Source: a virus. Taken from it: 29,724 bases of DNA. The first letter of the stretch is position 1. Every line of letters begins with the position of its first letter. Positions 5,473 through 28,092 of this stretch are shown piece by piece. The notes below the pieces were generated by a model. It was given only the letters and a program-made list of their open reading frames with translations, was not told where the DNA came from and searched no databases. The stretch is from IMG/VR virus record IMGVR_UViG_3300044591_001471, positions 1 to 29,724 of that record; one strand, given 5' to 3'. The translations under genes and the position numbers were made by a program.

Positions 5473-5494
5473 GTGCCACTTCCTCAACTGGCAC
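5473..5494. repeat. Palindrome copy A (GTGCCASTT family)
   Basis: Plus strand: GTGCCACTT, CCTC, AACTGGCAC. It spans the stop codon of the ligase-like gene. Confidence 0.8.
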
Positions 5495-6389
5495 ACTGGA
5501 AACGACCTGAGTTGAAATTGTGATAAGAAAAGACCTCACGATTCACCAGTTTGAACATACCAAACTCATTGGTCATCACATAACCTTCGGCATCGATTCT
5601 GTTGTGCCCGATGTATGCTGCGGGACCATCATTGCGGCACAGGAACAAACAATCATCTTTGATCGACTTCACCAATGCCCACAAACGAATCAGGTTAGGA
5701 TCACAATCAAACTCATTCACACTCTCTACACTGATCTGTTCACCAGCACGAATGCAGGCATTAAGTTGTTGTTTGATCTTTGCTGCTTCCTTATCAGTTA
5801 CAAAGGTCACAGTGGTTGCCATCTGACGGGCAAATTTGCAGATCTCATCAACATCGGCAAAGGACGTTTGACCGTGCAGAATGTATGCATTCGGTTTCAC
5901 ATATTTGACCGATTCGGTATCATTCCAGACTGCACGATCAGGGAATGCCTGAGCATCACGCAGATCGTTCTCAGCATAATAGCAGGTGTGAGGTGCAATG
6001 ATAATTTGCTGAGAAACTACCTCAGGGAACTGATAGGTGATGGTGTTGGATTTGTATTCAGTAGATCCACCAAACCCGATAAAGTCTGCCTGATAAATGG
6101 TGTCTGTATGAGGTAAGCAATCAAAACAAGAGTGAAGAATTTCTGCAACATTTCCATCGTAGAATTGATCAATCTCTTCATGATTGTGAGCAATACGAAT
6201 CTTTTTCTTGTTGAACACTGCTTTAGTGCCAACGAAAAATGTGCCAGTTGCAGGATCAATTCCCCACACAATTGCGGGAGCACCGTCTATCTTAACAGAC
6301 AAAGTGCCAGGAGTTACAAACCAATCCAGGACAGAAAGATCACCCGTGAGGATGGTATCTTCGGGGTGCTCAAGGTGGGTGTTTTTCAT
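5484..6389 (-). CDS. KxDG nucleotidyltransferase-like protein (RNA/DNA ligase fold)
   Basis: A 301-residue protein (begins MKNTHLEHPEDTILTGDLSV) with the ordered motifs of the covalent nucleotidyltransferase (ligase/capping) superfamily. Motif I is SVKIDGAPAI with K33-x-D-G36. A following strand FFVGTKAVFNKK may be motif Ia/III. QADFIGFGG lies near residue 100. EGYVM at residues 268-272 matches motif IV, and FKLVN at 279-283 (K280) matches motif V. Related T4-like phage proteins are listed as uncharacterised (DUF6267 type, by memory). Likely activity is ATP-dependent adenylylation with strand joining or capping-like chemistry; the substrate is unknown. It is the largest gene in the early region and ends in palindrome A. 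Confidence 0.75.
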   Translation of the reverse strand: MKNTHLEHPEDTILTGDLSVLDWFVTPGTLSVKIDGAPAIVWGIDPATGTFFVGTKAVFNKKKIRIAHNHEEIDQFYDGNVAEILHSCFDCLPHTDTIYQADFIGFGGSTEYKSNTITYQFPEVVSQQIIIAPHTCYYAENDLRDAQAFPDRAVWNDTESVKYVKPNAYILHGQTSFADVDEICKFARQMATTVTFVTDKEAAKIKQQLNACIRAGEQISVESVNEFDCDPNLIRLWALVKSIKDDCLFLCRNDGPAAYIGHNRIDAEGYVMTNEFGMFKLVNREVFSYHNFNSGRFQCAS

Positions 6390-6432
6390 GCTTTCAGTCT
6401 ACAGGGTCGGAAGTCGGATCTGGGGTCTCAGT

Positions 6433-6454
6433 GTGCCAGTTCAGAGATCGTCCC
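6433..6454. repeat. Palindrome copy M, diverged (GTGCCASTT family)
   Basis: Plus strand: GTGCCAGTT, CAGA, GATCGTCCC. The left arm is perfect and the right arm decayed. It spans the stop of the 55-residue membrane protein, as other copies span theirs. Confidence 0.55.
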
Positions 6455-6608
6455 ACCAAATGAAATCGTCGGCATTGCTCAAACTACCCTTCACCTTGAC
6501 GGTGATCATGACCCCGATGCCCATAGCAAGAGCAAACAGCAGGAGGACCTTACCAGTACCCTCAGGCAGATGATAAAATAGATCAACGATGGGAGTGATG
6601 TCAGGCAT
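6441..6608 (-). CDS. Small membrane protein
   Basis: A 55-residue protein (begins MPDITPIVDLFYHLPEGTGK) with one clear transmembrane helix, about residues 20-39 (KVLLLFALAMGIGVMITVKV), followed by a short acidic, Trp-containing tail (DDFIWWDDL). The basic residues flanking the helix suggest a single-pass inner-membrane protein. Function unknown. It lies just upstream of the ligase-like gene. Confidence 0.7.
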   Translation of the reverse strand: MPDITPIVDLFYHLPEGTGKVLLLFALAMGIGVMITVKVKGSLSNADDFIWWDDL

Positions 6609-6644
6609 TGGTCAAATGTTGTGATTGGTAAGTGTTACTTAAGG

Positions 6645-6866
6645 TCAGAGATCGGCCATCATTTCATTCAGTTCATCCCAATCAAGTTTAGGATCAGTGT
6701 AGCTAACTCCATCGGGAGTTGTAGCATCAAACCACATGTGCTTTACGAACTTAAGGTAATCATCATAACGACGGGCAATGTTATACAAACCCTCATCATT
6801 CTGAATCCACAGAGCAACATTCCAGGTTTCGTAGTTTGCCCAACCGTTGTAAGTTGCGGTGCTCAT
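6645..6866 (-). CDS. DUF7249-type small protein
   Basis: A 73-residue protein from the ATG at 6866 (MSTATYNGWANYETWNVALW). The NGWxNYETWNVALWIxND motif is a hallmark of a widespread phage and cyanobacterial family that I know as DUF7249. No function is known. The second half is acidic (LDWDELNEMMADL). An in-frame ATG seven codons earlier lacks support; the later one fits the family start. A TTGCAA-N17-CATACT promoter lies upstream. Confidence 0.82.
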   Translation of the reverse strand: MSTATYNGWANYETWNVALWIQNDEGLYNIARRYDDYLKFVKHMWFDATTPDGVSYTDPKLDWDELNEMMADL

Positions 6867-6891
6867 TGGTGTCGTTCGTTTCAACAAAGGT

Positions 6892-6920
6892 AGTATGGAT
6901 CAGATCGGGGGACTTTGCAA
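6892..6920 (-). promoter_or_regulatory. Sigma70-like promoter with hairpin around the -35
   Basis: Minus strand: -35 TTGCAA (6915-6920), exact 17-bp spacer, -10 CATACT (6892-6897). The -35 hexamer lies in the loop of a hairpin formed by GGGGGA and TCCCCC (6907-6926). It drives the DUF7249-type gene and directly follows palindrome B. Confidence 0.68.
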
Positions 6921-6928
6921 TCCCCCTT

Positions 6929-6950
6929 GTGCCACTTATCCGACTGTCAC
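6929..6950. repeat. Palindrome copy B (GTGCCASTT family)
   Basis: Plus strand: GTGCCACTT, ATCC, GACTGTCAC. It spans the stop of the gene at 6936-7133. Confidence 0.78.
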
Positions 6951-7133
6951 ATCCTCCAGCAGTTCGGGATTGTATTCTGTAATCTCAGTAATCAATTCCT
7001 CATCAGAATAGGACGAAAGATTATCCTTCAAAGTATCATAAACGAAACACTCCATTGTTTTCATATCCATCCCATCTAGGATCTGCTGAGCATAATCAGC
7101 AATGAGAGAATCACGGTCAAAGGTGTCAGTCAT
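6936..7133 (-). CDS. Small acidic cyanophage protein
   Basis: A 65-residue acidic, helical protein (begins MTDTFDRDSLIADYAQQILD; later YSDEELITEITEYNPELLED). I recognise the pattern as a recurrent small cyanophage protein; function unknown. Its ATG overlaps the stop of the upstream gene as ATGA, so translation is coupled. It is the last gene of a three-gene unit (7416 to 6936). Its last residues (DVTVG) are encoded by palindrome B. Confidence 0.75.
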   Translation of the reverse strand: MTDTFDRDSLIADYAQQILDGMDMKTMECFVYDTLKDNLSSYSDEELITEITEYNPELLEDVTVG

Positions 7134-7288
7134 TTGATGTTAAGGTGGGGTTGATTGTAAATCATGTGGTCAAGAATCATACCGATTTTTTGTCGGTAAG
7201 TTTCATCATAATTCTTAGAACACTCTTCATACGCATCGTAGAGTTTGGTATAAAGAGTGTCCCAATGTTGGCGACTGATTGTGTTCAT
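7130..7288 (-). CDS. Small phage protein, unknown
   Basis: A 52-residue protein (begins MNTISRQHWDTLYTKLYDAY) predicted to be mostly helical. It is coupled on both sides, overlapping the upstream stop (TGATG) and the downstream start (ATGA). This supports it as a real middle gene of a three-gene operon. Confidence 0.7.
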   Translation of the reverse strand: MNTISRQHWDTLYTKLYDAYEECSKNYDETYRQKIGMILDHMIYNQPHLNIK

Positions 7289-7416
7289 CAGTAATCGTAG
7301 TTTGCGTTCAGGTACTCATTGACATCGAACTTCTCAGTATCACGAAGTTCGGGAATGTCCATATCGAAGATCTCACCAGGAGCATCTTGAATCTCAGACC
7401 AGAGTTCATCAAACAT
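7288..7416 (-). CDS. Small acidic phage protein
   Basis: A 42-residue, strongly acidic protein (begins MFDELWSEIQDAPGEIFDMD, ends NEYLNANYDY). It is the first gene of a coupled three-gene unit and has its own promoter (TTGCGG-N17-TACATT). Its leader is nearly identical to that of the next gene upstream. Function unknown. Its acidity would suit a small inhibitor or DNA mimic, but that is only a guess. Confidence 0.65.
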   Translation of the reverse strand: MFDELWSEIQDAPGEIFDMDIPELRDTEKFDVNEYLNANYDY

Positions 7417-7417
7417 T

Positions 7418-7440
7418 GAAATCTCTCAGGAACGAATGTA
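7418..7440 (-). repeat. Duplicated leader sequence, copy 1
   Basis: Minus strand: TACATTCGTTCCTGAG, then AGATTTC, between promoter and start. The copy at 7701-7721 differs only by a 2-nt deletion. It is probably a duplicated promoter/leader cassette. Confidence 0.7.
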
Positions 7441-7468
7441 ATGTAGAACGGATTAATCAGAACCGCAA
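7440..7468 (-). promoter_or_regulatory. Sigma70-like promoter of the three-gene unit
   Basis: Minus strand: -35 TTGCGG (7463-7468), exact 17-bp spacer, -10 TACATT (7440-7445). It lies just downstream of palindrome C. Confidence 0.5.
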
Positions 7469-7476
7469 GGGGGTGT

Positions 7477-7498
7477 GTGCCACTTGTCAGACCGTCAC
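7477..7498. repeat. Palindrome copy C (GTGCCASTT family)
   Basis: Plus strand: GTGCCACTT, GTCA, GACCGTCAC. It spans the stop of the gene at 7495-7698. Confidence 0.75.
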
Positions 7499-7698
7499 AC
7501 CTCATTCATAACTTTAAGGCGACGAATGATATCAAACACTTCCATATCATCCATATCAATTTCATTCATATCAACAGGAGCAAATTCTTCGAGATTTACT
7601 GTACCGTTGGTGTAGATTGGGGCATAATACAACTCATCCCCATCTTCTTGTCCCAAAGTATACACACAACCGTGATTGGTAGAAGTCAGAAAAATCAT
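7495..7698 (-). CDS. Small acidic cyanophage protein
   Basis: A 67-residue protein (begins MIFLTSTNHGCVYTLGQEDG) with a beta-rich N-terminal half and an acidic C-terminal half (FAPVDMNEIDMDDMEVFD). It resembles a small protein family of T4-like cyanophages with unknown function. It sits alone between two palindromes (C at its end, D upstream) and has a duplicated leader. Confidence 0.72.
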   Translation of the reverse strand: MIFLTSTNHGCVYTLGQEDGDELYYAPIYTNGTVNLEEFAPVDMNEIDMDDMEVFDIIRRLKVMNEV

Positions 7699-7700
7699 CG

Positions 7701-7721
7701 GAAATCTCAGGAACGAATGTA
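7701..7721 (-). repeat. Duplicated leader sequence, copy 2
   Basis: Minus strand: TACATTCGTTCCTGAG then ATTTC, immediately ahead of the ATG at 7698. It matches 7418-7440 except for two missing bases. Confidence 0.7.
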
Positions 7722-7733
7722 AACTAGCAGGAA

Positions 7734-7982
7734 TCAGGAACGTTTGGTAGTTTTCTGTGCCACTTTCACAACTGGCACATCGGTATCAACCAACGCTTGC
7801 AATTGCCCAACAATAGTATCAACGAACTGCAGAACAGTTTGAATCACCTTGCGGGTCTTTTCTGCCCCGTTGTTTTCAACATAGGCACGAACAGCAAACT
7901 GATACAAACCCACGACAATTGCAGCAATCGTGGCAACATTTAGCACCAGAGTTTGGTAGAATTTCGAGGCAAAGAGTTTCAT
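7734..7982 (-). CDS. Small membrane protein with palindrome-encoded tail
   Basis: An 82-residue protein from the ATG at 7982 (MKLFASKFYQTLVLNVATIA). It has one transmembrane helix at about residues 12-30 and an amphipathic helical C-terminal half (RKVIQTVLQFVDTIVGQLQA). The longer upstream frame crosses the promoter and palindrome E and is rejected. The tail VPVVKVAQ is encoded by palindrome D and closely matches the tails of the proteins at 16760-17236 and 15671-16243. Function unknown; its form would fit a small membrane effector. Confidence 0.7.
   Translation of the reverse strand: MKLFASKFYQTLVLNVATIAAIVVGLYQFAVRAYVENNGAEKTRKVIQTVLQFVDTIVGQLQALVDTDVPVVKVAQKTTKRS
7757..7778. repeat. Palindrome copy D (GTGCCASTT family), translated
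   Basis: Plus strand: GTGCCACTT, TCAC, AACTGGCAC. It lies within the last codons of the 82-residue membrane protein and encodes V-P-V-V-K-V-A-Q. Confidence 0.8.
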
Positions 7983-8033
7983 GATATTTTCGTGGTTGGA
8001 AGAGAATGTAGAGAATTTCTCAACCACGAATGT

Positions 8034-8062
8034 AGTATGGCACGGAGATATCACGTATGCAA
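8034..8062 (-). promoter_or_regulatory. Sigma70-like promoter (CATACT class)
   Basis: Minus strand: -35 TTGCAT (8057-8062), exact 17-bp spacer, -10 CATACT (8034-8039). It lies 52 bp ahead of the ATG of the 82-residue membrane protein and directly downstream of palindrome E. The leader includes repeats of TTGAGAAATTC. Confidence 0.65.
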
Positions 8063-8070
8063 TGGGTCTT

Positions 8071-8092
8071 GTGCCAGTTCTCCGACTGTCAC
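8071..8092. repeat. Palindrome copy E (GTGCCASTT family)
   Basis: Plus strand: GTGCCAGTT, CTCC, GACTGTCAC. It is the only copy not at a gene 3' end. It forms one edge of the composite inverted repeat at 8071-8171. Confidence 0.78.
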
Positions 8093-8152
8093 ATATTCTC
8101 AATAAGATCTTGTTATTGAGAATCAATAAGTATTACTAATTGAGAATATGTG
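8090..8152. repeat. Nested inverted repeats of ATTCTCAA
   Basis: An outer pair of perfect 14-bp arms (CACATATTCTCAAT at 8090-8103 and its reverse complement at 8139-8152) encloses a perfect 11-bp inverted repeat (ATTCTCAATAA at 8095-8105 and its complement at 8113-8123). The arms overlap, so alternative foldings compete. There is no T-run on either strand, so a terminator is unlikely. Further ATTCTCAA copies occur at 8824-8877. Confidence 0.75.
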
Positions 8153-8171
8153 CCAATCTACAAACTGGCAC
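8150..8171. repeat. Palindrome copy F (GTGCCASTT family)
   Basis: Plus strand: GTGCCAATC, TACA, AACTGGCAC. It begins immediately after the stop of the gene at 8173-8325 and forms the other edge of the composite inverted repeat. Confidence 0.75.
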
Positions 8172-8172
8172 A

Positions 8173-8325
8173 TTACCAATCGATATCGAATTCTTGTACC
8201 TTACAATGGACATCTTCACCTGGTTCGAGTTGCAATAACTCACGCCAGTTAATATCATCTAGGTCTAGATCATCATAACACATGATATCTAGTGTAACCT
8301 GTACGATACGCTTCTGTGCTATCAT
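8173..8325 (-). CDS. Small acidic conserved cyanophage protein
   Basis: A 50-residue protein (begins MIAQKRIVQVTLDIMCYDDL, then DLDDINWRELLQLEPGED). It resembles a small family of cyanophage proteins with a strand, a DDLDL/DW helix and a final strand ending in EFD. Function unknown. It ends two bases before palindrome F. Confidence 0.68.
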   Translation of the reverse strand: MIAQKRIVQVTLDIMCYDDLDLDDINWRELLQLEPGEDVHCKVQEFDIDW

Positions 8326-8355
8326 GATGCTCTCGTGTATGTGTGCTAGATTCTA

Positions 8356-8517
8356 TCATGCATAATGACGATATGCAAGTGATTCGTAATCTTGCCCATC
8401 TCGTGCATAATCCTCGTCGAGGTTCGCATCACCTTGCACATAATGCTCGTAGTATGAGTCCTCGTCGAGATTGTAATCGTTACTGAAAGAGTAGTCGAGA
8501 TCGTAGTCGTCGTACAT
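8356..8517 (-). CDS. Small Asp/Tyr-rich protein beside the CTCGWCGAG array
   Basis: A 53-residue, extremely acidic and Tyr-rich protein from the ATG at 8517 (MYDDYDLDYSFSNDYNLDED). Two CTCGWCGAG sites (8413-8421 and 8461-8469) are translated as Leu-Asp-Glu within NLDED repeats. Upstream lies a TTGCAA-N17-TACACT promoter whose spacer holds another site. A longer frame to 8595 crosses this promoter and is rejected. The protein may be a DNA mimic or a repeat-driven sequence of little function; I cannot tell. Confidence 0.55.
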   Translation of the reverse strand: MYDDYDLDYSFSNDYNLDEDSYYEHYVQGDANLDEDYARDGQDYESLAYRHYA

Positions 8518-8670
8518 AATGCTCGTCGAGAATGATTGATGACTGTTATAGTGTAGCACGATCTCGACGAGTTTGCAAGCCCTTATGATGCACAATCTCG
8601 TCGAGTCTCATAATGATATATATGTATTCTCGACGAGAAATGTTAAGATATGATTATAATTCTCGTCGAG
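8413..8670. repeat. CTCGWCGAG array (seven perfect sites)
   Basis: Perfect 9-bp near-palindromes CTCGTCGAG or CTCGACGAG occur at 8413-8421, 8461-8469, 8522-8530, 8563-8571, 8597-8605, 8629-8637 and 8662-8670. Half-sites (GTCGAG, TCTCGT) lie between them and up to 8730. Two sites are coding; five are in the 5' flank of the acidic gene. Flanking bases extend several sites to TCTCGWCGAGA. This looks like an array of binding sites for a dimeric protein. Confidence 0.8.
8550..8578 (-). promoter_or_regulatory. Promoter with CTCGACGAG in its spacer
   Basis: Minus strand: -35 TTGCAA (8573-8578), 17-bp spacer, -10 TACACT (8550-8555). The CTCGWCGAG site at 8563-8571 lies wholly inside the spacer and a second lies at 8522-8530 in the leader. 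This geometry is that of an operator overlapping a core promoter. It would drive the Asp/Tyr-rich gene at 8356-8517. Confidence 0.6.
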
Positions 8671-8705
8671 ATATGTGTGGGTCTCGTAGCAAATCTCGTG
8701 GGGGG

Positions 8706-8735
8706 TTGACATTTCGGGGTCTCGTGTGTTATAAT
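8706..8735 (+). promoter_or_regulatory. Plus-strand sigma70 promoter
   Basis: Plus strand: perfect TTGACA (8706-8711), 18-bp spacer, perfect TATAAT (8730-8735). It is the only strong plus-strand promoter I see, pointing into the direct-repeat region and then antisense to the end of the gene at 8948-9220. The spacer contains CTCGT, a half-site of the array. Confidence 0.6.
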
Positions 8736-8750
8736 GCGCGGACTAAACTC

Positions 8751-8774
8751 ACAAGTCTCAGAGGCATTTATAAG
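8751..8774. repeat. 24-bp direct repeat, copy 1
   Basis: Plus strand ACAAGTCTCAGAGG then CATTTATAAG. Identical to 8796-8819, start-to-start distance 45 bp. Read on the minus strand each copy begins CTTATAAATG, close to the late-promoter consensus. Confidence 0.85.
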
Positions 8775-8795
8775 GTTTTATCACACTTATAAAAT

Positions 8796-15483: not shown

Positions 15484-15645
15484 TCAGTTTTCGGGATAAA
15501 GTTTCCAACCATCGGGGCGGATGCCCATTTCTTCACAACGGACCTCATAAACAATCCGTTTCAGAAGTTGAAGAGGCATTTCATTCTCAATCGTTTTCTG
15601 AATAGTGTGGCGGATCTGTTGATCTTGCGTTGTGTCGGTGACCAT
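15484..15645 (-). CDS. Small cyanophage protein, unknown
   Basis: A 53-residue protein from the ATG at 15645 (MVTDTTQDQQIRHTIQKTIE; ends RPDGWKLYPEN). An AAGGGA ribosome binding site and a TATAAT box precede this ATG. The longer frame to 15729 crosses both and palindrome G, so it is rejected. Function unknown. Confidence 0.7.
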   Translation of the reverse strand: MVTDTTQDQQIRHTIQKTIENEMPLQLLKRIVYEVRCEEMGIRPDGWKLYPEN

Positions 15646-15669
15646 TGCGGTTCCCTTGATTACCTTGTA

Positions 15670-15675
15670 ATTATA
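15670..15675 (-). promoter_or_regulatory. -10 box (TATAAT) after palindrome G
   Basis: Minus strand CTATAATTACAAGG, 25 bp ahead of the ATG at 15645, overlapping the stop of the methyltransferase-like gene. A small CACT/AGTG hairpin and palindrome G lie just upstream. No strong -35. Confidence 0.55.
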
Positions 15676-16243
15676 GAGGAAGAACTGCCTCACTGCGAGT
15701 GCGTTGTGCCAGTTTGGAAGCTGGCACATTCAGTTCCTCCATTATGATTTGTTTTGGTAGAAAGTTCCAACAATAGTAACTGCTGCTGAACGTGATTTTA
15801 TCATTTGGACGACCATCAGGACTGTGAAACTTCATACGCTTATCAAACATCAGCAGTTGCAGATCTTTGTCCTTGAACAGTTGCTTTGGTGCAGAATCAT
15901 TCAACCAGGTGTTCGTCATAATCAGAGCAAATGGTTTGCCAAATGATAATGCTCGCTCGAAGAACTTTCTCTTGTTTGTGAATGGTGGATTGGATACAAT
16001 TACATCCCAATGAAACTTTGGTGTAAAAGTGAGAAAATCATAACCCTGTGAAATATGGGAATAAATCACTTGATTTTGTGGTGAGATTTGCTTGACAAAC
16101 TCACTCTCAGCAGTGTCAAATGGGCACCAAACAGTGGCACCTTTGGGAATGTATTTCAGAATAGGAGTAACACCGTATGAAGGAGTATAGCACTCATCAT
16201 TATTCCCTTCGGAATACATTAGTTTTCCACTATCAAGTGTCAT
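15671..16243 (-). CDS. DNA adenine methyltransferase-like protein
   Basis: A 190-residue protein with the NPPF motif (VIVSNPPFTNKRKFFERAL, N85-P-P-F88) of amino-methyltransferases. The N-terminal NDECYTPSYGVTPILKY resembles the substrate/start region of phage adenine methyltransferases. The usual SAM-binding FxGxG loop is replaced by VWCPFDTAESEFV, so cofactor binding should be tested. It overlaps the nuclease-like gene by ATGA. Its last residues (VPASKLAQ) are encoded by palindrome G. It could be an active N6-adenine methylase, or a degenerate one. Confidence 0.78.
   Translation of the reverse strand: MTLDSGKLMYSEGNNDECYTPSYGVTPILKYIPKGATVWCPFDTAESEFVKQISPQNQVIYSHISQGYDFLTFTPKFHWDVIVSNPPFTNKRKFFERALSFGKPFALIMTNTWLNDSAPKQLFKDKDLQLLMFDKRMKFHSPDGRPNDKITFSSSYYCWNFLPKQIIMEELNVPASKLAQRTRSEAVLPL
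15706..15727. repeat. Palindrome copy G (GTGCCASTT family), translated
   Basis: Plus strand: GTGCCAGTT, TGGA, AGCTGGCAC. It lies in the last codons of the methyltransferase-like gene and encodes V-P-A-S-K-L-A-Q. Confidence 0.8.
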
Positions 16244-16737
16244 ACAATTTGAGTTCCGTATTGATAAATTTCTTTCTTAGTTAGATTACCAGAGAGTCGG
16301 GGATCTTTATGCTTACCGTGAATCTTACGTTCCCAATCTTTCTTGAGTTTAGGAAGCAGAATCATCAACACATCATCACCAGTCAGTTTCCAAACTTCTA
16401 CAACTTTGCCACCATCATAACGGGCAATGTAGTGATTGGAATACTTACCAAGTTTTTCCTCAATCAAATAACGTTCCTGTTCTTCCCAGGTATCTTGAAC
16501 ACTGATACCATTATACGTCCCATTGATGAAATTGGCAATGGTAGATTTATACTCACATTCACCATCTTGATCAACAGCATCAGCACCCGAATAGGTTTCT
16601 GCTACTTGATGCCCAAGAATACCAGCAAGATGTATCTCACGCGATCGAGCATAACTGAAAGGATCTCCCCAACCTTGCTCATCACAAAGTTGGTACATTT
16701 CCTCAAACAGTTGCTGAAACCGTTGTTCAGGGGTCAT
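16240..16737 (-). CDS. PD-(D/E)XK nuclease-like protein
   Basis: A 165-residue protein with a nuclease-type signature. After a helix with EIHLAGILGH comes YSGADAVDQDGECEYKST, giving D53/D56 and E62-x-K64, the spacing of the PD-(D/E)XK core. It then has WEEQERYLIEEKLGKY and VVEVWKLTGDDV, ending in KDPRLSGNLTKKEI. It directly precedes the methyltransferase-like gene with a 4-bp ATGA overlap. This makes a plausible restriction-modification-like or site-specific DNA-processing pair. The promoter upstream (TATAAT at 16759) would give one transcript for both. Confidence 0.72.
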   Translation of the reverse strand: MTPEQRFQQLFEEMYQLCDEQGWGDPFSYARSREIHLAGILGHQVAETYSGADAVDQDGECEYKSTIANFINGTYNGISVQDTWEEQERYLIEEKLGKYSNHYIARYDGGKVVEVWKLTGDDVLMILLPKLKKDWERKIHGKHKDPRLSGNLTKKEIYQYGTQIV

Positions 16738-16758: not shown

Positions 16759-16764
16759 ATTATA
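16759..16764 (-). promoter_or_regulatory. -10 box (TATAAT) of the nuclease/methyltransferase pair
   Basis: Minus strand GTATAATACAAG, 22 bp ahead of the ATG at 16737, overlapping the stop of the upstream gene. A GCCTG-ATG-CAGGC hairpin (16767-16779) abuts it. Confidence 0.6.
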
Positions 16765-17236
16765 CTGCCTGCATCAGGCGGTTCGGGAAAAACTGTGCCA
16801 CTTTGGGGACTGGCACACCTTGTTTCTCAATTAGATACTCCAGATATAGGGTTTCTTCTTGCTCCCGTGCCTCTATTTCGTGTGGTTGATGCCAATAGTC
16901 GTACTTTTCGACTGGTTCTTTAGAATAACACAATTTTCCGTATCGGAACCGCAGTGAACCGACTACCCACTGGCGCAAGTGGACCAGTTCGTGTAAAAGA
17001 GTTTTTATATACAACTCCTCAGACATATGGGTGTTGAGTTCAATCAGAAACTCACGGGGACGACGTGATGCTCCCACATAGTCGCAATACCCATAAACTT
17101 GTTCACGACGCAGACCACGATGAAGAATCTCCACCTCAATCTTATGACGGGGAAGAAACTTATTCAGAAACCAAGTGGTAACGTCCTCACAGAGGCGTTT
17201 AGAATAACCATATCCAGAATACGTGATGTAAGACAT
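16760..17236 (-). CDS. SprT-like HExxH zinc metalloprotein
   Basis: A 158-residue protein from the ATG at 17236 (MSYITYSGYGYSKRLCEDVT). LLHELVHLRQW gives H82-E83-xx-H86, a zincin active site. HQPHEIEAREQEE (H119/E120 or E127) supplies a third ligand, as in SprT/WLM-like proteins. Other recognisable cyanophage segments are NKFLPRHKIEVEILHRGLRR and REFLIELNTHM. It is probably a protease or peptidase acting in the host; the substrate is unknown. The tail VPVPKVAQ is encoded by palindrome H. The codons before M8 use TTG and are not needed. Confidence 0.8.
   Translation of the reverse strand: MSYITYSGYGYSKRLCEDVTTWFLNKFLPRHKIEVEILHRGLRREQVYGYCDYVGASRRPREFLIELNTHMSEELYIKTLLHELVHLRQWVVGSLRFRYGKLCYSKEPVEKYDYWHQPHEIEAREQEETLYLEYLIEKQGVPVPKVAQFFPNRLMQAV
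16795..16816. repeat. Palindrome copy H (GTGCCASTT family), translated
   Basis: Plus strand: GTGCCACTT, TGGG, GACTGGCAC. It is translated as V-P-V-P-K-V-A-Q near the end of the SprT-like gene. Confidence 0.8.
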
Positions 17237-17530: not shown

Positions 17531-17962
17531 TCACTTTGCGTACAAATAAGAACCTGCCCAGTCTGCATTTTCAAGCAACCATTCACGTTGCTCAATCAGT
17601 CGCAGATCATAACGAACACCTTTGGCAGGTGCTTTCCAACTAGCAGACTTATAAACTTCACCAGTCTTTTTATCTACAAAAGCGTGGACAGAGCGAGAAC
17701 CAGCAGCATTCATAATGATTTTGTGATACTTACGACCCGTTTCGGGGTAGAAGTCATAGTCACAGATACCCTGCTTCAGTTTATCAATACAAGCATCGTG
17801 GTATTCAACATCTTCAGTACGAAGTGCATGAGATTTGATGCTGTAATCAATAAAGTTCTGACGCAGTGCTTCACAGAGAGCATAGGTGTGCCCCAGAACT
17901 GCCTCTGCAATATTGTTCCGTGCCTCTTGCTGGGCAGCATAGTCGGCAAAGGTGGTAGTCAT
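17531..17962 (-). CDS. Conserved phage protein (DUF7717-like)
   Basis: A 143-residue protein from the ATG at 17962 (MTTTFADYAAQQEARNNIAE). The C-terminal half is distinctive: DFYPETGRKYHKIIM, SRSVHAFVDKKTGEVYKS, ASWKAPAKGVRYDL and ADWAGSYLY. I know this from many phages as a conserved domain of unknown function (DUF7717, by memory). The longer frame to 17995 crosses the TATAAT box and is rejected. Confidence 0.8.
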   Translation of the reverse strand: MTTTFADYAAQQEARNNIAEAVLGHTYALCEALRQNFIDYSIKSHALRTEDVEYHDACIDKLKQGICDYDFYPETGRKYHKIIMNAAGSRSVHAFVDKKTGEVYKSASWKAPAKGVRYDLRLIEQREWLLENADWAGSYLYAK

Positions 17963-17983
17963 CGGTTGATTGCGTATGTGCTT

Positions 17984-17989
17984 ATTATA
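17984..17989 (-). promoter_or_regulatory. -10 box (TATAAT) for the DUF7717-like gene
   Basis: Minus strand CCCTATAATAAGC, 22 bp ahead of the ATG. A CCTAG/CTAGG hairpin (17996-18012) lies just upstream, then the stop of the 41-residue gene and palindrome I. Confidence 0.58.
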
Positions 17990-18015: not shown

Positions 18016-18141
18016 TCAGTATGCCAGTTCATGATCTGGCACCCAGGGTTCATCATCACCCAAGAATCCCATCCAATCTGCTGGTTCAGAACCATAGATT
18101 TCAATTTCCCGCAGTTCCTCAATCAGTTCAGACAGATCCAT
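18016..18141 (-). CDS. Small acidic protein
   Basis: A 41-residue acidic protein (begins MDLSELIEELREIEIYGSEP). Its last residues (VPDHELAY) are encoded by palindrome I. A TATAAT box (18165-18170) and a GAGGG ribosome binding site precede the ATG. It lies alone between two palindromes. Function unknown. Confidence 0.65.
   Translation of the reverse strand: MDLSELIEELREIEIYGSEPADWMGFLGDDEPWVPDHELAY
18021..18042. repeat. Palindrome copy I (GTGCCASTT family), translated
   Basis: Plus strand: ATGCCAGTT, CATG, ATCTGGCAC. It encodes the last residues of the 41-residue protein. Confidence 0.7.
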
Positions 18142-18164: not shown

Positions 18165-18170
18165 ATTATA
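18165..18170 (-). promoter_or_regulatory. -10 box (TATAAT) for the 41-residue gene
   Basis: Minus strand GCTATAATATTC, 23 bp ahead of the ATG at 18141 and directly behind the terminator at 18174-18196. Confidence 0.58.
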
Positions 18171-18173
18171 GCA

Positions 18174-18196
18174 GAAAACCCACCTTTTGGGTGGGT
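18174..18196 (-). terminator. Rho-independent terminator of the SPFH-like gene
   Basis: Minus strand: ACCCACC, loop CAAAA, GGTGGGT, then TTTC. The 7-bp GC-rich stem with a short T-run follows the stop at 18218 and palindrome J. Confidence 0.75.
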
Positions 18197-18199
18197 CTT

Positions 18200-18221
18200 G
18201 TACCAGTTTTTAAACCGTCAC
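18200..18221. repeat. Palindrome copy J (GTGCCASTT family)
   Basis: Plus strand: GTACCAGTT, TTTA, AACCGTCAC. It spans the stop of the SPFH-like gene and directly precedes a terminator. Confidence 0.7.
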
Positions 18222-18637: not shown

Positions 18638-19024
18638 TTAAACAGCAAGGGCAGCAGAGGGGATTTCAACAACTTCGGGCAGTTTGCTATCATCAAACTG
18701 ATGCATATTATAGCAGACCCATTCACCACTACGGAAGACATATGCATACTCTTCGCTATTATCAGGCAGAAGATATTCGCACAAGTCAGCATCAAGGCGA
18801 GGAGGGCAATTCTCACCGCGAGCACTATAATACTCAGGTTGATTGTCATCATTCCAGCAGGTGCTCATATCACCACCATCAATCAGTTCGGCAGCAAGTT
18901 CTTTGCTGTTGTAGTGGGTGCGAAGAATGCGACCCAACCAAGACTCATATCCATCCCAGTGGTGATAGGCAGACAGGATAGAACCATCAGCAAGTTCAAG
19001 ACCGATGCGGGAACGAGTTGCCAT
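18638..19024 (-). CDS. Conserved phage/bacterial protein (MATRSRIG family)
   Basis: A 128-residue protein (begins MATRSRIGLELADGSILSAY). HHWDGYESWLGRIL and ELIDGGDMSTCWND are hallmarks of a family widespread in phages and bacteria without known function. Its C-terminal part is acidic with WVCYNM. A TATAAT box lies 26 bp ahead of the ATG, after the CP12 gene. Confidence 0.82.
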   Translation of the reverse strand: MATRSRIGLELADGSILSAYHHWDGYESWLGRILRTHYNSKELAAELIDGGDMSTCWNDDNQPEYYSARGENCPPRLDADLCEYLLPDNSEEYAYVFRSGEWVCYNMHQFDDSKLPEVVEIPSAALAV

Positions 19025-19049: not shown

Positions 19050-19081
19050 ATTATAAGGGGTCCCCAGTGCCCTGAGAACCC
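19050..19081 (-). promoter_or_regulatory. Hairpin plus -10 box between CP12 and the next gene
   Basis: Minus strand: a 10-bp stem with two G-U pairs (19072-19081 with 19058-19067, 4-nt loop) runs directly into TATAAT (19050-19055). The hairpin could stop CP12 transcription and the -10 would start the MATRSRIG gene. Confidence 0.6.
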
Positions 19082-19086
19082 TCTGT

Positions 19087-19108
19087 GTGCCAGTTTACTA
19101 ACTGTCCT
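19087..19108. repeat. Palindrome copy K (GTGCCASTT family)
   Basis: Plus strand: GTGCCAGTT, TACT, AACTGTCCT. It touches the CP12 stop codon. Confidence 0.7.
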
Positions 19109-20189: not shown

Positions 20190-20383
20190 TAGAATTCACT
20201 TCTCCTTCTAGGTTTTTTAATTTCAGGTTTATAAAAACAATAATCAGGTAAATTTACATCTTGCCCTTCAAAGTAGTAACAGAGTTGTTCTACATCTTTT
20301 TGATATTTTGAATTATTGATTTTTGATTCAATAGTATTAAGATGGCAAACTATATTATACCCACATAATAAAAATTCAAACAT
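20189..20383 (-). CDS. Small protein, unknown
   Basis: A 64-residue protein (begins MFEFLLCGYNIVCHLNTIES; ends KPRRRSEF) with a hydrophobic start and a basic tail. It is coupled to the AbrB-domain gene upstream. The N-terminal hydrophobic stretch is short; a membrane anchor is possible but not clear. Confidence 0.68.
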   Translation of the reverse strand: MFEFLLCGYNIVCHLNTIESKINNSKYQKDVEQLCYYFEGQDVNLPDYCFYKPEIKKPRRRSEF

Positions 20384-20982
20384 TAACAGTCATCCATTCC
20401 CAGTGGTTGTATTACCTTACGGAGAAGATAAGACCCATCGCCCTGATCTGCCCACTCCACTTGATCTCCTTCTTTAAGATTTGCTGCTTCCAAAAGATCA
20501 TCAGGGAAAGATACAATATAATCTTCTAAATCATCACTTACTTCAACGGGAAGAACCCACTTCTTCACTTTATCTTGTTTTACACTACTCACAGTTGAAC
20601 CTTGATATTCCAAATCACTGTGCCCCCAAGGACGCATACCATCATCCTTTACCTCTTCTGGGTAATAATGCTCTTCCCAGAAGGAAGTCCAAGAGTTTTT
20701 ACATTCGGGTGATGGATCTTCCTTATCACACACAAGATTTTCTTTTTTCTCAACATATTCATCGTATGCTGTAATATGACCCTTACCATTACCATTCAGA
20801 AGAGCAAGAAGTTCATAGCAACGACCAGTATAATGCTTGAAGTAATGATATTCTTCATCTACAACATCCTTAATGGTATTGTATATTTCTTGTGGGCTTG
20901 CTTCTGCACTAGTCAGAGCATTTCTTACCCAAGTTTCAAGTTTTTCAAGAGAATACTTTTTATAATCAAAGTCAGAGGTCAT
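20383..20982 (-). CDS. Protein with C-terminal AbrB-like domain
   Basis: A 199-residue protein. Residues 1-100 are acidic with a helical start (EKLETWVRNALTSAEASPQE). Residues 142-190 (VLPVEVSDDLEDYIVSFPDD, then LLEAANLKEGDQVEWADQG) match the AbrB/SpoVT strand-FPxxLLxxxxLKxGDxVxW-strand pattern. Such domains bind DNA or form antitoxins. The N-terminal partner region is not recognised. It may regulate phage or host promoters. Confidence 0.75.
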   Translation of the reverse strand: MTSDFDYKKYSLEKLETWVRNALTSAEASPQEIYNTIKDVVDEEYHYFKHYTGRCYELLALLNGNGKGHITAYDEYVEKKENLVCDKEDPSPECKNSWTSFWEEHYYPEEVKDDGMRPWGHSDLEYQGSTVSSVKQDKVKKWVLPVEVSDDLEDYIVSFPDDLLEAANLKEGDQVEWADQGDGSYLLRKVIQPLGMDDC

Positions 20983-24193: not shown

Positions 24194-24195
24194 AA

Positions 24196-24540: not shown

Positions 24541-24544
24541 AGTA

Positions 24545-24727: not shown

Positions 24728-25136
24728 TTTCCTTTCTCACTCGTTCAAGAAATGCAGTTGCTTGTTCATCCAATCGTGCAATCAAATCCTCAATATCACT
24801 AATTGCAATCTCATTATACTCACGGTTGAGGTTCTCACAACGCAAAGCATCAATCATAGATTGAAATGCAATCATTTGTTGATGTTCTGGAGTGATAGGT
24901 GTGCCGTGAGGAAGAGAGGCACATTCCATATTGTAGAAGTCATTATATCGTTGAAGAACACGATTACTCTTCTCACGACGTTCTGCCTCATCAAACATTT
25001 CGTCAGGGTATGGTTCTTGGTTCATCATAAGTTTCCTCAGTTTCTCTTTGCCGTATTCAGTCAGTTCGTGTTTTTGTTTGCGGAGTTCTTCTACTTCTTC
25101 TTGGGTGAGATTGACCCAAGGCATATCATTGTTCAT
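24705..25136 (-). CDS. Helical charged protein, unknown
   Basis: A 143-residue protein from the ATG at 25136 (MNNDMPWVNLTQEEVEELRK) with long charged helices (EYGKEKLRKLMMNQEPYPDE; later EDLIARLDEQATAFLERVRK). This is coiled-coil-like; the function is not recognised. The TTG at 25145 is not needed, and the ATG overlaps the upstream stop (ATGA). Confidence 0.72.
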   Translation of the reverse strand: MNNDMPWVNLTQEEVEELRKQKHELTEYGKEKLRKLMMNQEPYPDEMFDEAERREKSNRVLQRYNDFYNMECASLPHGTPITPEHQQMIAFQSMIDALRCENLNREYNEIAISDIEDLIARLDEQATAFLERVRKENERRKES

Positions 25137-25315
25137 TGTTCCCAAGCATAAGATTTCAGAAGTTCGTTGTCCTTCTCCAGTTGCTCTATTCTATCACACA
25201 ACTCGGTGATAATACAAATCAAAGAAGGATAGCAAATAGTTTCAGTATCATTCCCATCCTCCATATCAATATAACGGTAATGGCAAAGTTCTTTGGCAAA
25301 GTTACGTTCAGTCAT
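25133..25315 (-). CDS. Small coiled-coil-like protein
   Basis: A 60-residue protein from the ATG at 25315 (MTERNFAKELCHYRYIDMED; later LCDRIEQLEKDNELLKSYAW). A good AAGGAG ribosome binding site precedes this ATG. It is coupled to both neighbours. Function unknown. Confidence 0.73.
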   Translation of the reverse strand: MTERNFAKELCHYRYIDMEDGNDTETICYPSLICIITELCDRIEQLEKDNELLKSYAWEQ

Positions 25316-25938
25316 CGTAGCATCTCCTTGATTTTCTGCAAACAACTGTTGAAACCATCCACAAGTAATTCAGTATTTACATTCTGACTTCCTGCTGCTG
25401 ATTGTTCTTTCGGCAACCAACTCTCCACCAAATCTACAATATCATTACAGGTATCAAAATCATAACCAAGTTCATCCACCAATCTATTAAAAAGCTTTTG
25501 TGCTTGATATTTTTTCACCAACCTATTCACAACTTCATCCATAGGTTTTGGATCGTCTTTCTCATCACACTTTACTTTATTATAATAATCATCTTCTCTT
25601 ACCTTCTCTTCGTATGCTGCCTGAAAACCTGCTTTGAAACCTTTCCACCTTGTATCATCATACTTGGAATCAGTTTCCAATTCAGGATATTGCCCCCACC
25701 AATCTTTGTATGCTTCTTCTACTGGTGATTTATGTTTCTCAATCTCTTTGAGGAGTTCAAGTTTCTTTTGAAGCACTTTGATTTCTGCTTCTGTTTTTTC
25801 AATATCAGATTTGAAAGTCATTTGTTTAAGGTAAGGAGTAGCATCCATCACACCATCTTTGATTGCTTGTCTAAAGGCATCACGAAGTCCATCAGCAACT
25901 TGCTCTGGTGTTTGTGGAGTTGGTTGAAATTCAGTCAT
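25312..25938 (-). CDS. Coiled-coil protein, unknown
   Basis: A 208-residue acidic protein (begins MTEFQPTPQTPEQVADGLRD). It has a coiled coil over residues 44-70 (DIEKTEAEIKVLQKKLELLK) and then WKGFKAGFQAAYEEKVREDD. Motifs of the WxGFxAGFxAAYE type are frequent in phage early proteins. It ends in a helical region with two further possible helices. Function unknown. Confidence 0.74.
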   Translation of the reverse strand: MTEFQPTPQTPEQVADGLRDAFRQAIKDGVMDATPYLKQMTFKSDIEKTEAEIKVLQKKLELLKEIEKHKSPVEEAYKDWWGQYPELETDSKYDDTRWKGFKAGFQAAYEEKVREDDYYNKVKCDEKDDPKPMDEVVNRLVKKYQAQKLFNRLVDELGYDFDTCNDIVDLVESWLPKEQSAAGSQNVNTELLVDGFNSCLQKIKEMLR

Positions 25939-26185
25939 TATTCGTCAGTCCTGTTTGTTCTTCCAGTTTAGCATATTTTCCTCGCATAAAACCCTCATAG
26001 AACGATGCGTAAATCCATTTTCTCATCAGGTCTTCACGGGTCTTTGGGTCTTCAACAGAACAATCTCCCGCAAACCATTCAACAGTCCAAGTCCATTCAG
26101 TATGATTTCCATAAAACCATTCGTTGAAGGATGTTTCAATATCCTCAACAAACTCCCAGTCTTCTATTGGGTATTGTTTAGTCAT
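25931..26185 (-). CDS. Aromatic-rich phage protein, unknown
   Basis: An 84-residue protein from the ATG at 26185 (MTKQYPIEDWEFVEDIETSF), with many Trp, Phe and Tyr (FNEWFYGNHTEWTWTVEWFA) and YASFYEGFMRGKYA. It is coupled to the upstream gene by ATGA, which decides this start over a longer GTG frame to 26239. Function unknown. Confidence 0.7.
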   Translation of the reverse strand: MTKQYPIEDWEFVEDIETSFNEWFYGNHTEWTWTVEWFAGDCSVEDPKTREDLMRKWIYASFYEGFMRGKYAKLEEQTGLTNND

Positions 26186-26367
26186 AAGTCTAATGGTTGC
26201 TGGGGGTCTTTTTTCCAAACTTCTTTGTATGTAATCCACCGTTCCACACCAATTTCTTGTTGAGCAACCCAGTGTATTCCATTCTCATCAATCCCATCAA
26301 GATAATGAATACGGGTCTTCGGGTCAATCACTCGTGATACTTGTGTGAATTTTAGTTTGTTAGTCAT
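26182..26367 (-). CDS. Small beta-rich protein, unknown
   Basis: A 61-residue protein (begins MTNKLKFTQVSRVIDPKTRI; then DENGIHWVAQQEIGVERWIT) with strand-like alternation (KTRIHYLDGIDENGIHWVAQ). Coupled by overlap. Function unknown. Confidence 0.7.
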   Translation of the reverse strand: MTNKLKFTQVSRVIDPKTRIHYLDGIDENGIHWVAQQEIGVERWITYKEVWKKDPQQPLDL

Positions 26368-26587
26368 TTTCTTTCATACAAGGGTACTCAAACTTTTCAC
26401 CAATACATTCTAACATAGTGCGGGCAAAGGTAATCTCACCATAAGCACAACCATCTTCAAAGGCATCATCATAATTACCAGCACTTGGAGTATAATCATC
26501 TCCAAATAGACCTTCATAGCAGTGTTTTACCTCTGCTACTTCTTTGAGAACCTTGAGGAGAAGTGTGAGTTTTTCTTCGGTAGTCAT
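26360..26587 (-). CDS. Small acidic protein, unknown
   Basis: A 75-residue protein (begins MTTEEKLTLLLKVLKEVAEV; later DDAFEDGCAYGEITFARTML). The DDAFxDGxxYGExxFAR pattern recurs in phage early proteins. Coupled to neighbours by ATGA. Function unknown. Confidence 0.72.
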   Translation of the reverse strand: MTTEEKLTLLLKVLKEVAEVKHCYEGLFGDDYTPSAGNYDDAFEDGCAYGEITFARTMLECIGEKFEYPCMKEND

Positions 26588-26910
26588 TTTACCCCCAGAA
26601 GTTTTTTTTCTTCATCAGTCAAACGAGCAAGAAGTTCTTGTCGTTTTTGTTCTTTGATTTCTTTTTGTTGTTTTTCTTCCAACTTTTCATCAAGAATATC
26701 CATCATAGTATCAAAACTATAACATCCTTTGTTCCAGTTGCTCTCACCTTTTTGAGTGATGACTACCTTTTCATCAAATCCTTCTGAACGGAACATTTCG
26801 TAAATGCGAATTACATAATCATCATCTTTGTCCTCATAAACCTCAACACTTAAATCAAGTTGTTTTGCTTTGGTAAAGAGTTTGAGAAGTTCAGTTACTT
26901 TGATAGTCAT
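26584..26910 (-). CDS. Charged protein, unknown
   Basis: A 108-residue protein. The N-terminal half is alpha/beta (VEVYEDKDDDYVIRIYEMFR); the C-terminal half is a highly charged coiled coil (MMDILDEKLEEKQQKEIKEQ, then KRQELLARLTDEEKKLLGVK). Function unknown. Confidence 0.73.
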   Translation of the reverse strand: MTIKVTELLKLFTKAKQLDLSVEVYEDKDDDYVIRIYEMFRSEGFDEKVVITQKGESNWNKGCYSFDTMMDILDEKLEEKQQKEIKEQKRQELLARLTDEEKKLLGVK

Positions 26911-26930
26911 TTCAGTTCCTCATCATCACT

Positions 26931-27131
26931 CTAGAAATCACAGACCTCTCTGGATGCAGTCCTATACTGGTTCTTCTGCCTCACCATAAGAACATTTTTG
27001 CCATTTCGTTCTTCACGATAAAACTCCATTGTAGAACCAGTACCAAGAAGAACTGCAACTTGAAAAAGAACTGCTTCCTTTTCACTTTCAGTAAATACGT
27101 AGTCTATAGAAGATTTTACATAGTCATTCAT
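26931..27131 (-). CDS. Small protein, unknown
   Basis: A 66-residue protein (begins MNDYVKSSIDYVFTESEKEA; then FYREERNGKNVLMVRQKNQY). Mixed helix and strand. It is coupled to the upstream gene by ATGA. Function unknown. Confidence 0.7.
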   Translation of the reverse strand: MNDYVKSSIDYVFTESEKEAVLFQVAVLLGTGSTMEFYREERNGKNVLMVRQKNQYRTASREVCDF

Positions 27132-27451
27132 TTCAGTTCTCCATAAGAAAGTGTTTTGATTTCTTCTACATTCAAGGTTTTGACATAACCACGAGGATAG
27201 TCATTATCATAAGCATTAAAGACAAAAACAGGAATGTTTCGTTCTTTACAGATTTGTTTGAACTTTTCTTCATTCAGTTCAAACTTACCAATATACTCTA
27301 CATTTGGATACCTGTCCCAAGAAGTTACAAGTCCTCCTGGATAATAACCCCACTCAAACTCATCAAGTTCTTGAATGATATTTTCTACCTCTTGAATGTT
27401 CTCTGGATTAGTGTAGATGCGTCCGTATCCTTTGTAATTGAAAGCAGTCAT
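27128..27451 (-). CDS. Conserved phage protein, unknown
   Basis: A 107-residue protein from the ATG at 27451 (MTAFNYKGYGRIYTNPENIQ). Alternating helices and strands (VENIIQELDEFEWGYYPGGL; later FKQICKERNIPVFVFNAYDN) suggest a compact alpha/beta domain. The ATG follows the upstream stop by one base; the longer GTG frame is not needed. Function unknown. Confidence 0.72.
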   Translation of the reverse strand: MTAFNYKGYGRIYTNPENIQEVENIIQELDEFEWGYYPGGLVTSWDRYPNVEYIGKFELNEEKFKQICKERNIPVFVFNAYDNDYPRGYVKTLNVEEIKTLSYGELK

Positions 27452-27452
27452 T

Positions 27453-27695
27453 TCAATCTCCAAGAACACCTGACCTTACACTTTCCACACCATCAACATA
27501 TCCCCTATCATACTCATCACCTGCTCCAATATCATAACCAATACCATATGCTTTATCAGCAACTACAAGAGCAAACTTTACAGCAACCTCACGAAAGGCA
27601 TTATTCATAGCACCAGTCATAACACCAGCACCAAGACTATTCATTCCAAACTGGGTTCCATCACCCCAGAGTTCAATAAGTTCTTGTTCAGTCAT
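27453..27695 (-). CDS. Gly/Ala-rich small protein, unknown
   Basis: An 80-residue protein (begins MTEQELIELWGDGTQFGMNS; then GAGVMTGAMNNAFREVAVKF, YGIGYDIGAGDEYDRGYVDG). It is unusually rich in Gly, Ala and Met with weakly amphipathic character; an interaction with membranes or a phage particle is conceivable. A TATAAT promoter element at 27719-27724 precedes it. Confidence 0.68.
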   Translation of the reverse strand: MTEQELIELWGDGTQFGMNSLGAGVMTGAMNNAFREVAVKFALVVADKAYGIGYDIGAGDEYDRGYVDGVESVRSGVLGD

Positions 27696-27705
27696 AAGGT
27701 ATCTG

Positions 27706-27724
27706 TGTGTATGAGAGTATTATA
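27706..27724 (-). promoter_or_regulatory. -10 region with TACTCTCATACACA element, copy 1
   Basis: Minus strand TATAATACTCTCATACACA, ahead of the ATG at 27695. It is 18 of 19 bases identical to 28022-28040, so two adjacent genes share a duplicated promoter/leader. Confidence 0.65.
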
Positions 27725-28009
27725 TCAAATGGAATGAGGAGAACTTATTTCAGTCAAAGGAAGAGTTTCCAGTTCTGCATAGGTGAATGGAATGCCATCA
27801 TCAAGTCGTGCTTCATTTTTATAAAGATAAAACTGCTTAAAATTAACAACAGTTCCCCTCAAATCTCCATCTTCATCTACTTGATAGACAAGCACATCAC
27901 AATACTTATTTCCATCATAAGTCAGGATTGCTGCCTTACGAATAGGTGCTTTTTCTCCCGCAACATCACCATAAGATGGAATAGGATAATCAGTAAAGGC
28001 ATCAAGCAT
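27725..28009 (-). CDS. Conserved protein, unknown
   Basis: A 94-residue protein from the ATG at 28009 (MLDAFTDYPIPSYGDVAGEK), beta-rich (AAILTYDGNKYCDVLVYQVD, then EDGDLRGTVVNFKQFYLYKN) with an acidic C-terminus. It might be a small OB- or SH3-like beta barrel, but I cannot assign it. The ATG follows AAGGAACTCC. The longer frame to 28048 crosses the promoter element and is rejected. Confidence 0.7.
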   Translation of the reverse strand: MLDAFTDYPIPSYGDVAGEKAPIRKAAILTYDGNKYCDVLVYQVDEDGDLRGTVVNFKQFYLYKNEARLDDGIPFTYAELETLPLTEISSPHSI

Positions 28010-28021
28010 TTGGAGTTCCTT

Positions 28022-28040
28022 TGTGTATGAGAGTATCATA
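28022..28040 (-). promoter_or_regulatory. -10 region with TACTCTCATACACA element, copy 2
   Basis: Minus strand TATGATACTCTCATACACA, followed by AAGGAA and the ATG at 28009. It is the paired copy of 27706-27724. Confidence 0.65.
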
Positions 28041-28070
28041 CCACCCACAGAGGCACCCAGAGCATCCCCT

Positions 28071-28092
28071 GTGCCAGTTCTTCAAGTGTCCT
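28071..28092. repeat. Palindrome copy L (GTGCCASTT family)
   Basis: Plus strand: GTGCCAGTT, CTTC, AAGTGTCCT. It spans the stop of the 35-residue zinc-ribbon gene. It is the isolated right-most copy. Confidence 0.7.

Follow-up and report, generated by a model that had tools for sequence, protein, structure and literature searches.

The subject of this analysis is a 22-bp palindrome, GTGCCASTT-N4-AACTGKCAC, dispersed through the virus record IMGVR_UViG_3300044591_001471 (29,724 bases, the whole of which is referred to below as the window) and predicted here to be an operator for a host regulator. Judged from its sequence, the window seems to be part of the genome of a T4-like cyanophage; positions 141-4007 align with phage S-SRM01 at 75.6% DNA identity, and the protein encoded at 875-1276, a match to the gp25-like baseplate wedge, is 78% identical to a protein of Synechococcus phage S-SKS1. 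The main reading frames lie on the minus strand. A sequence-only reading of the window had counted at least 13 copies of the palindrome, 12 of which were recovered as places with no more than three mismatches to the consensus, compared to a mean of 0.08 and a maximum of 3 places in shuffled sequences; the motif thus occurs well above chance frequency. The remaining copy, at 6433, is weak (four mismatches to the minus-strand consensus), and a further weak copy at 4644-4665, absent from that list, brings the total to 14. All copies share one orientation, and their likeness is confined to the 22 bp, with centres and flanks varying among copies. As had been claimed, the interior of the long operon (19.6-27.7 kb) is free of copies, but its head carries one, copy 28071. 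Scans of the window yielded nothing at gathering scores with Rfam and no tRNA, while a generic inverted-repeat scan, at its settings, failed to list these palindromes; a generic search of 15-29.7 kb for promoters and terminators was unspecific. The copies are as follows, each with its -10-like hexamer and gene where these could be assigned.

4644-4665, minus strand: weak palindrome (four mismatches); -10-like AATACT at 4608-4613
5473-5494, minus strand: palindrome; -10-like CATACT at 5436-5441, adjoining the first ATG of the reading frame (5435)
6433-6454, minus strand: weak palindrome; -10-like TAGACT at 6396-6401; gene 5484-6389 (DUF6267)
6929-6950, minus strand: palindrome; hairpin in the spacer; -10-like CATACT at 6892-6897; gene 6645-6866 (DUF7249)
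7477-7498, minus strand: palindrome; -10-like TACATT at 7440-7445; gene 7288-7416
7757-7778, minus strand: palindrome; poor -10 TAGTTT (3/6) at 7721-7726; gene 7495-7698
8071-8092, minus strand: palindrome; -10-like CATACT at 8034-8039; gene 7734-7982
8150-8171, minus strand: palindrome, 79 bp upstream of copy 8071; no convincing -10
15706-15727, minus strand: palindrome; -10 TATAAT at 15670-15675; gene 15484-15648 if an internal ATG is used
16795-16816, minus strand: palindrome; -10 TATAAT at 16759-16764; gene 16240-16737
18021-18042, minus strand: palindrome; -10 TATAAT at 17984-17989; gene 17531-17968 if an internal ATG is used
18200-18221, minus strand: palindrome; terminator hairpin in the spacer; -10 TATAAT at 18165-18170; small reading frame 18016-18141
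19087-19108, minus strand: palindrome; hairpin in the spacer; -10 TATAAT at 19050-19055; gene 18638-19024
28071-28092, minus strand: palindrome at the head of the long operon; -10 TATGAT at 28035-28040; first gene 27725-28012 if an internal ATG is used

Since the -10-like box of copy 5473 adjoins the first ATG, the real start codon of that frame probably lies further in. Another inverted repeat, ATTCTCAATAA ... TTATTGAGAAT, occupies 8093-8149 between copies 8071 and 8150, and part of gene 18638-19024 (18647-18820) aligns with an S-PM2 gene annotated as T4-like GC 66.

On the minus strand of the window, the order is palindrome, 29-31 bp, -10-like hexamer and start codon. At least four of the six bases of TATAAT were found at +29 to +31 in 12 of the 14 copies (background 0.20), the failures being 7757 and 8150, and a perfect TATAAT in five (background 0.003); read in the opposite orientation, six copies reached 4/6, one reached 5/6 and none was perfect. 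A start codon follows 40-120 nt downstream of 13 of the 14 copies, a distance that is partly circular because the internal starts of 5473, 15706, 18021 and 28071 were chosen after the promoters had been seen; without these four, the count is 9/10. The list of genes used for start- and stop-codon distances was picked by hand, and the -10 test is independent of it.

Scanning viral contigs with GTGMCAGTTNNNNAASTGGCAC returned at least 120 stretches. Among the matches listed, 182 exact sites had enough flanking sequence, and a hexamer with at least 5/6 identity to TATAAT lay at +30 in 56 of them and at +31 in 30; other distances mostly gave 0-2, with exceptions at +41 (10), +33 (7), +29 (6), +13 (5) and +4, +34 and +42 (4 each). 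Counted as distinct places among the listed matches, and taking the better of two orientations, 119 of 171 had such a hexamer at +29 to +32. Counting from the first base of the -10 box, the same listed contigs display a purine-T-A pattern 12-14 nt downstream, which suggests the transcription start and thereby puts the palindrome centre near -53. We also searched 24 phage records with the strand-symmetric pattern GTGMCASTTNNNNAASTGKCAC, allowing up to two mismatches and using the reversed pattern as a control. Fourteen records were positive, with 123 places in total and a single one for the control, so that the search of related cyanophages which the sequence-only reading had suggested bore out the family. 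Within a set of 128 places, made up of 116 of the 123 isolate places and 12 window places, 85 carried at least 5/6 of TATAAT at +29 to +32 in one orientation, versus 2, 8 and 8 at control distances, a fixed spacing of the kind that marks upstream elements of sigma-70-type promoters.

The spacer itself is not uniform. Of 745 oriented candidates, a set containing some sites counted in both orientations, 210 carry a TTG at an offset of exactly 8 nt past the palindrome, with 1-28 occurrences at the other offsets between 0 and 23. Strong hairpins (-10 kcal/mol or below) were predicted in 21% of the spacers between operator and -10 box (2.7% after shuffling) and in 9% of the 31-nt segments upstream of the palindrome (1.9% after shuffling); terminators of upstream genes thus seem to lie on both sides of the palindrome, more often in the spacer. 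Terminator-like hairpins stand where a -35 element would be at window positions 6898-6928, 18171-18199 and 19056-19086, and likewise in the 53916 region of P-SSM2 (L211) and the 54644 region of S-SRM01 (L208). From these sequences, the terminator of the upstream gene seems to be nested inside the next promoter. That the palindrome is a promoter-linked DNA operator is a prediction in which we place very high confidence.

The sequence-only reading had put twelve copies at stop codons and taken the family to mark gene ends. Within about 36 nt of a stop we found 11 of the 13 listed copies, not 12, the exceptions being 8071 and 28071; a stop at -15 to +36 was present in 9 of all 14 copies, compared to a random fraction of 0.16. 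The association is therefore above chance, but it is mostly a by-product: the genes are packed, the stops belong to the upstream gene, and each copy forms the upstream part of the promoter of the gene that follows. As a landmark, the -10 box on the minus strand is firmer than the stop codon. It is on this proximity to stops, and on the capacity of the arms to pair, that an RNA hairpin serving in processing, protection or termination at mRNA 3' ends could be argued. Yet the arms vary without covarying. Across the 128 window and isolate places, the strongly variable arm positions 4 and 19 formed Watson-Crick pairs in 54 (55.6 expected from independence) and positions 7 and 16, likewise strongly variable, in 48 (64.7 expected), and no compensatory changes were seen, contrary to what selection for a hairpin would produce. 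A larger set of 410 sites gave the same outcome; it is biased, as most of its contigs came from a search whose pattern rules out one type of pair, hence the repeat on 128 places. Absence of covariation speaks for a DNA operator rather than an RNA hairpin, and the fixed position relative to the -10 box, the lack of a T-run after the palindromes and the presence of separate terminator-like hairpins in some spacers all tell against the latter, which we consider very improbable. At positions 7 and 16, G/G and C/C were commoner than the symmetric C/G (7 of 128 places), indicating a systematic asymmetry in the inner arms of the operator. A mobile palindromic repeat dispersed through the genome would explain the many scattered copies per genome; as the likeness stops at 22 bp, with varying centres and flanks, and the distance to the -10 box holds constant across loci with different flanks and across different genomes, we give this origin hardly any credence. 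Among the options offered by the sequence-only reading, it is the protein-binding site that finds support, from promoter geometry and from the unpaired behaviour of the arms.

The number of places per positive record ranged widely: S-PM2, 8; Syn9, 2; S-SRM01, 15; P-SSM2, 12; P-SSM4, 4; S-CREM1, 1; S-SKS1, 9; S-RSM4, 5; S-CRM01, 21; Syn33, 2; S-RIM8, 2; S-SSM2, 3; ACG-2014f, 30; and P-RSM4, 9. In P-SSM2 most sites fall between 44 and 69 kb, where the neighbouring genes are for the most part labelled hypothetical. None of the six phages of non-cyanobacterial hosts was positive (T4, Vibrio XZ1, Aeromonas Aswh_1, Stenotrophomonas IME-SM1, Salmonella STML-13-1 and Pelagibacter HTVC008M), the last being filed in Kyanoviridae like most positive records. 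A looser search, with three mismatches and an asymmetric pattern, was positive in 9 of 13 phages, including one place in S-TIM5. Two palindromes with a TATAAT-like -10 near +30 also occur in a metagenome-assembled genome named Flavobacteriales bacterium TMED113 (L197:4383-4404 and 7429-7450); this contig is probably a misbinned cyanophage.

Outside viruses, scanning one genome per species in 84,980 species returned 31 stretches, about the number estimated by chance. Six were cyanobacterial, and two of these (L190 and L192) lie 40-41 nt upstream of RNAs of the Rfam family Cyano-1, which we take to be the Yfr2 family. The GTGTGAGGAG start of the Cyano-1 RNAs agrees with a primer for Yfr2a given in PMC2662882 and is similar to the 5' end of Yfr2 type cited in PMC2518516. 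A Cyano-1 locus was found in 96 of 101 picocyanobacterial genomes and in 39 of 98 genomes phylum-wide. A weight matrix was built from phage sites only (13 from the window and 57 from isolates) and its best hit per 550 bp recorded at the 30 best-scoring loci from the 96 picocyanobacterial and the 30 best-scoring loci from the 39 phylum-wide genomes with a match, which are not random draws; one of the test loci, L222, came from a genome found through the palindrome. The best hit fell 34-45 nt before the RNA at 25 of the 30 picocyanobacterial and 16 of the 30 phylum-wide loci (0.7 expected in either set); scores were positive for 23 and 15 of these hits, respectively. Promoters of yfr2 homologues thus carry a phage-type element at a phage-type position. 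A first version of this test had used 73 loci, 15 of them from genomes found through the palindrome and with L292 left out, and was repeated on the 30 + 30.

The same conclusion can be approached without phage information. In a set comprising L224 and 29 of the 30 picocyanobacterial loci (L262 left out), GACAGTT was the commonest 7-mer shared upstream of the Cyano-1 RNAs, present in 15 of 30 (largest count after shuffling, 6) and lying 55-61 nt from the RNA in 13 promoters and 21 nt in two. The host half-site, GTGACAGTT, is the same as the phage half-site. Near-perfect palindromes were seen in Cyano-1 promoters of non-picocyanobacteria, for instance L226, L221 and L290; PMC6778093 describes CGRE1, a yfr2-promoter element, as a motif of marine picocyanobacteria. 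The Cyano-1 RNA itself was found in none of 13 phage records. A broad picocyanobacterial regulon of full palindromes was considered and rejected, with 30 places in 101 genomes as opposed to 78 for the reversed control; good sites are thus far denser in these phages. One version of the palindrome recurs in five picocyanobacterial genomes and, in the four inspected, lies inside a LysR-type reading frame, presumably RbcR. An exact palindrome in Cyanobium sp. CH-040 (L177:2042-2063) is flanked by a tRNA gene on one side and an integrase-like reading frame on the other; the locus may be a genomic island that employs the operator seen in the phages. On sequence grounds, we think it probable that the phage palindromes are yfr2-type operators borrowed from the host, bound by PlmA and probably serving activation.

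Lambrecht, Wahlig and Steglich reportedly described in 2018 the CGRE1 element of yfr2 promoters and its binding by the GntR regulator PMM1637/PlmA. In PMC6778093, PMM1637 is stated to bind yfr2 promoters holding CGRE1 and to mediate Yfr2 induction, and PMC7344720 gives the role of yfr2-promoter regulator to PlmA, a partner of the PII-PipX complex whose regulon is called unknown or yet to be defined (PMC7344720, PMC6243067). According to PMC5083789, all cyanobacteria and no other organisms have PlmA, which is essential in S. elongatus; that paper cites about 200 dimers per cell. The GntR domain PF00392 was absent from the 13 phage records searched (of the 24) and present in a Cyanobium genome (G001), in a 329-amino-acid protein that no named family model fits and that is taken for PlmA. 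The element's match to the host yfr2 site suggests gene activation in these viruses by way of a host regulator, and host PlmA is, with good probability, the protein that would bind the palindromes.

The proposed mechanism is as follows. The palindrome would be a phage version of the operator that precedes yfr2 (Cyano-1) small-RNA genes, its 22 bp consisting of two arms of about 9 bp around four free bases, with the centre about 53 bp before the predicted start of transcription. The operator would be followed by 8 bp and then a TTG -35 element, by the terminator hairpin of the upstream gene, or by neither, and by a -10 box beginning 30-31 bp after it, the whole forming a sigma-70-type phage promoter. 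Its most likely binder, host GntR-family PlmA (PMM1637 in Prochlorococcus MED4), would act early in infection and probably help the host RNA polymerase as an activator; from their gene content, the genes downstream of the palindromes are likely early or middle. That PlmA activates these promoters, a view drawn from the operator's position upstream of the -35 and from the reported induction of Yfr2, seems to us rather likely. GntR regulators are often repressors, and PlmA might instead bind and repress, or be titrated, the operators delaying phage genes or acting as a sponge that takes PlmA off yfr2; up to 30 good sites per phage genome compared to no enrichment in 101 picocyanobacterial genomes would suit such a role. 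A centre near -53 is, however, outside the -35/-10 region and fits activation better. The induction of Yfr2 via PMM1637 (PMC6778093) points the same way, and we judge repression or titration improbable.

Several results weigh against operators worked by PlmA. With up to two mismatches, no palindrome was found in the cyanophages Syn5, Ma-LMM01, S-TIM5 and BUCT-ZZ01, though PlmA is called universal, and S-CREM1, Syn9, Syn33 and S-RIM8 have only one or two places each; the palindrome therefore cannot be the only route. The element is missing at 34-45 nt in 14 of the 30 phylum-wide Cyano-1 loci, the right arm of the host site is degenerate in picocyanobacteria, unlike that of the phage sites, and 43 of the 128 window and isolate places lack a 5/6 -10. 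The GntR search, moreover, is blind to other phage DNA-binding proteins. A phage-encoded, non-GntR activator that copies the host specificity and plays a MotA-like role would accommodate the phages of cyanobacteria without sites. The window does encode possible DNA-binding proteins, such as the product of 20383-20982 (minus strand), whose C-terminal MazE/AbrB-like domain falls under the Pfam cut-off and which is a possible phage DNA-binding protein by sequence. Against such an activator, host yfr2 promoters carry this element equally far from the start of their RNA and are reportedly bound by a host GntR protein (PMC6778093), and we hold it to be unlikely, if less so than repression or titration. 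As to other genes near the palindromes, window 15671-16243 (minus strand) matches only positions 204-386 of the 458-position DNA methyltransferase profile phrog_799 and is possibly a shortened methyltransferase.

Activation by PlmA at these operators would offer a concrete proposal for non-late gene control in T4-like cyanophages, of which no settled account was found in the literature searched; a named host protein would act through a single operator present up to 30 times in a genome. The phage set also supplies candidate targets for PlmA, whose regulon is otherwise undefined in reviews. More speculatively, and we would not put it at even chances, T4-like cyanophages may run a large gene set through PlmA and so tie the timing of infection to PII-PipX-PlmA nitrogen and redox signalling, their many near-perfect operators drawing PlmA off the few degenerate host sites and lowering Yfr2. 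Host-regulator boxes for NtcA and Pho are already known in cyanophages; a genome-wide set of PlmA-type operators would be new. No earlier report of the palindrome in cyanophages was recognised in the literature searched, nor were transcription-start data for Syn9 found there; it did not cover the 2018 CGRE1 study, which may itself mention cyanophages, so that an earlier report may exist.

Among known systems, the middle promoters of T4 depend on the phage-encoded MotA, which binds a box near -30. They resemble the promoters proposed here in having an activator box upstream of the -10, a weak or missing -35 and a T4-like phage as carrier, but differ in the origin of the activator and in the position of its box, the palindrome lying near -53 and matching a host site. 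Identity with a MotA box was rejected by inspection, as the element ends about 30 bp before the -10 with its centre near -53. The late-promoter sites of P2 Ogr and P4 Delta are dyad-symmetric, centred near -55, with the sequence TGT-N12-ACA, and are bound by phage-encoded zinc-finger activators; the palindrome shares with them dyad symmetry, a similar position and, as proposed, the part of an activator site, but neither the sequence nor the class of protein. The CGRE1/PlmA operator is compared here by its description in PMC6778093: it and the phage element have the half-site in common, and hits of the phage matrix precede most of the picocyanobacterial Cyano-1 loci examined at 34-45 nt. Phage copies differ in being near-symmetric, in numbering up to 30 per genome and in lying on promoters of protein genes, whereas in picocyanobacterial host copies the right arm is degenerate. 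Cyanophage genomes also contain predicted NtcA and Pho boxes (PMC3037559), which are likewise host-regulator sites on phage promoters, but with other sequences (GTA-N8-TAC and CTTA-N7-CTTA) and another host regulator; NtcA-box identity was rejected, inspection of the copies showing no GTA-N8-TAC. Finally, pMarR of podovirus P-SSP7, which acts on host rne (PMC9692554), is a further instance of transcription control crossing over between phage and host in picocyanobacteria, in the opposite direction: there a phage factor works on a host promoter, whereas here a host factor is proposed to work on phage promoters.

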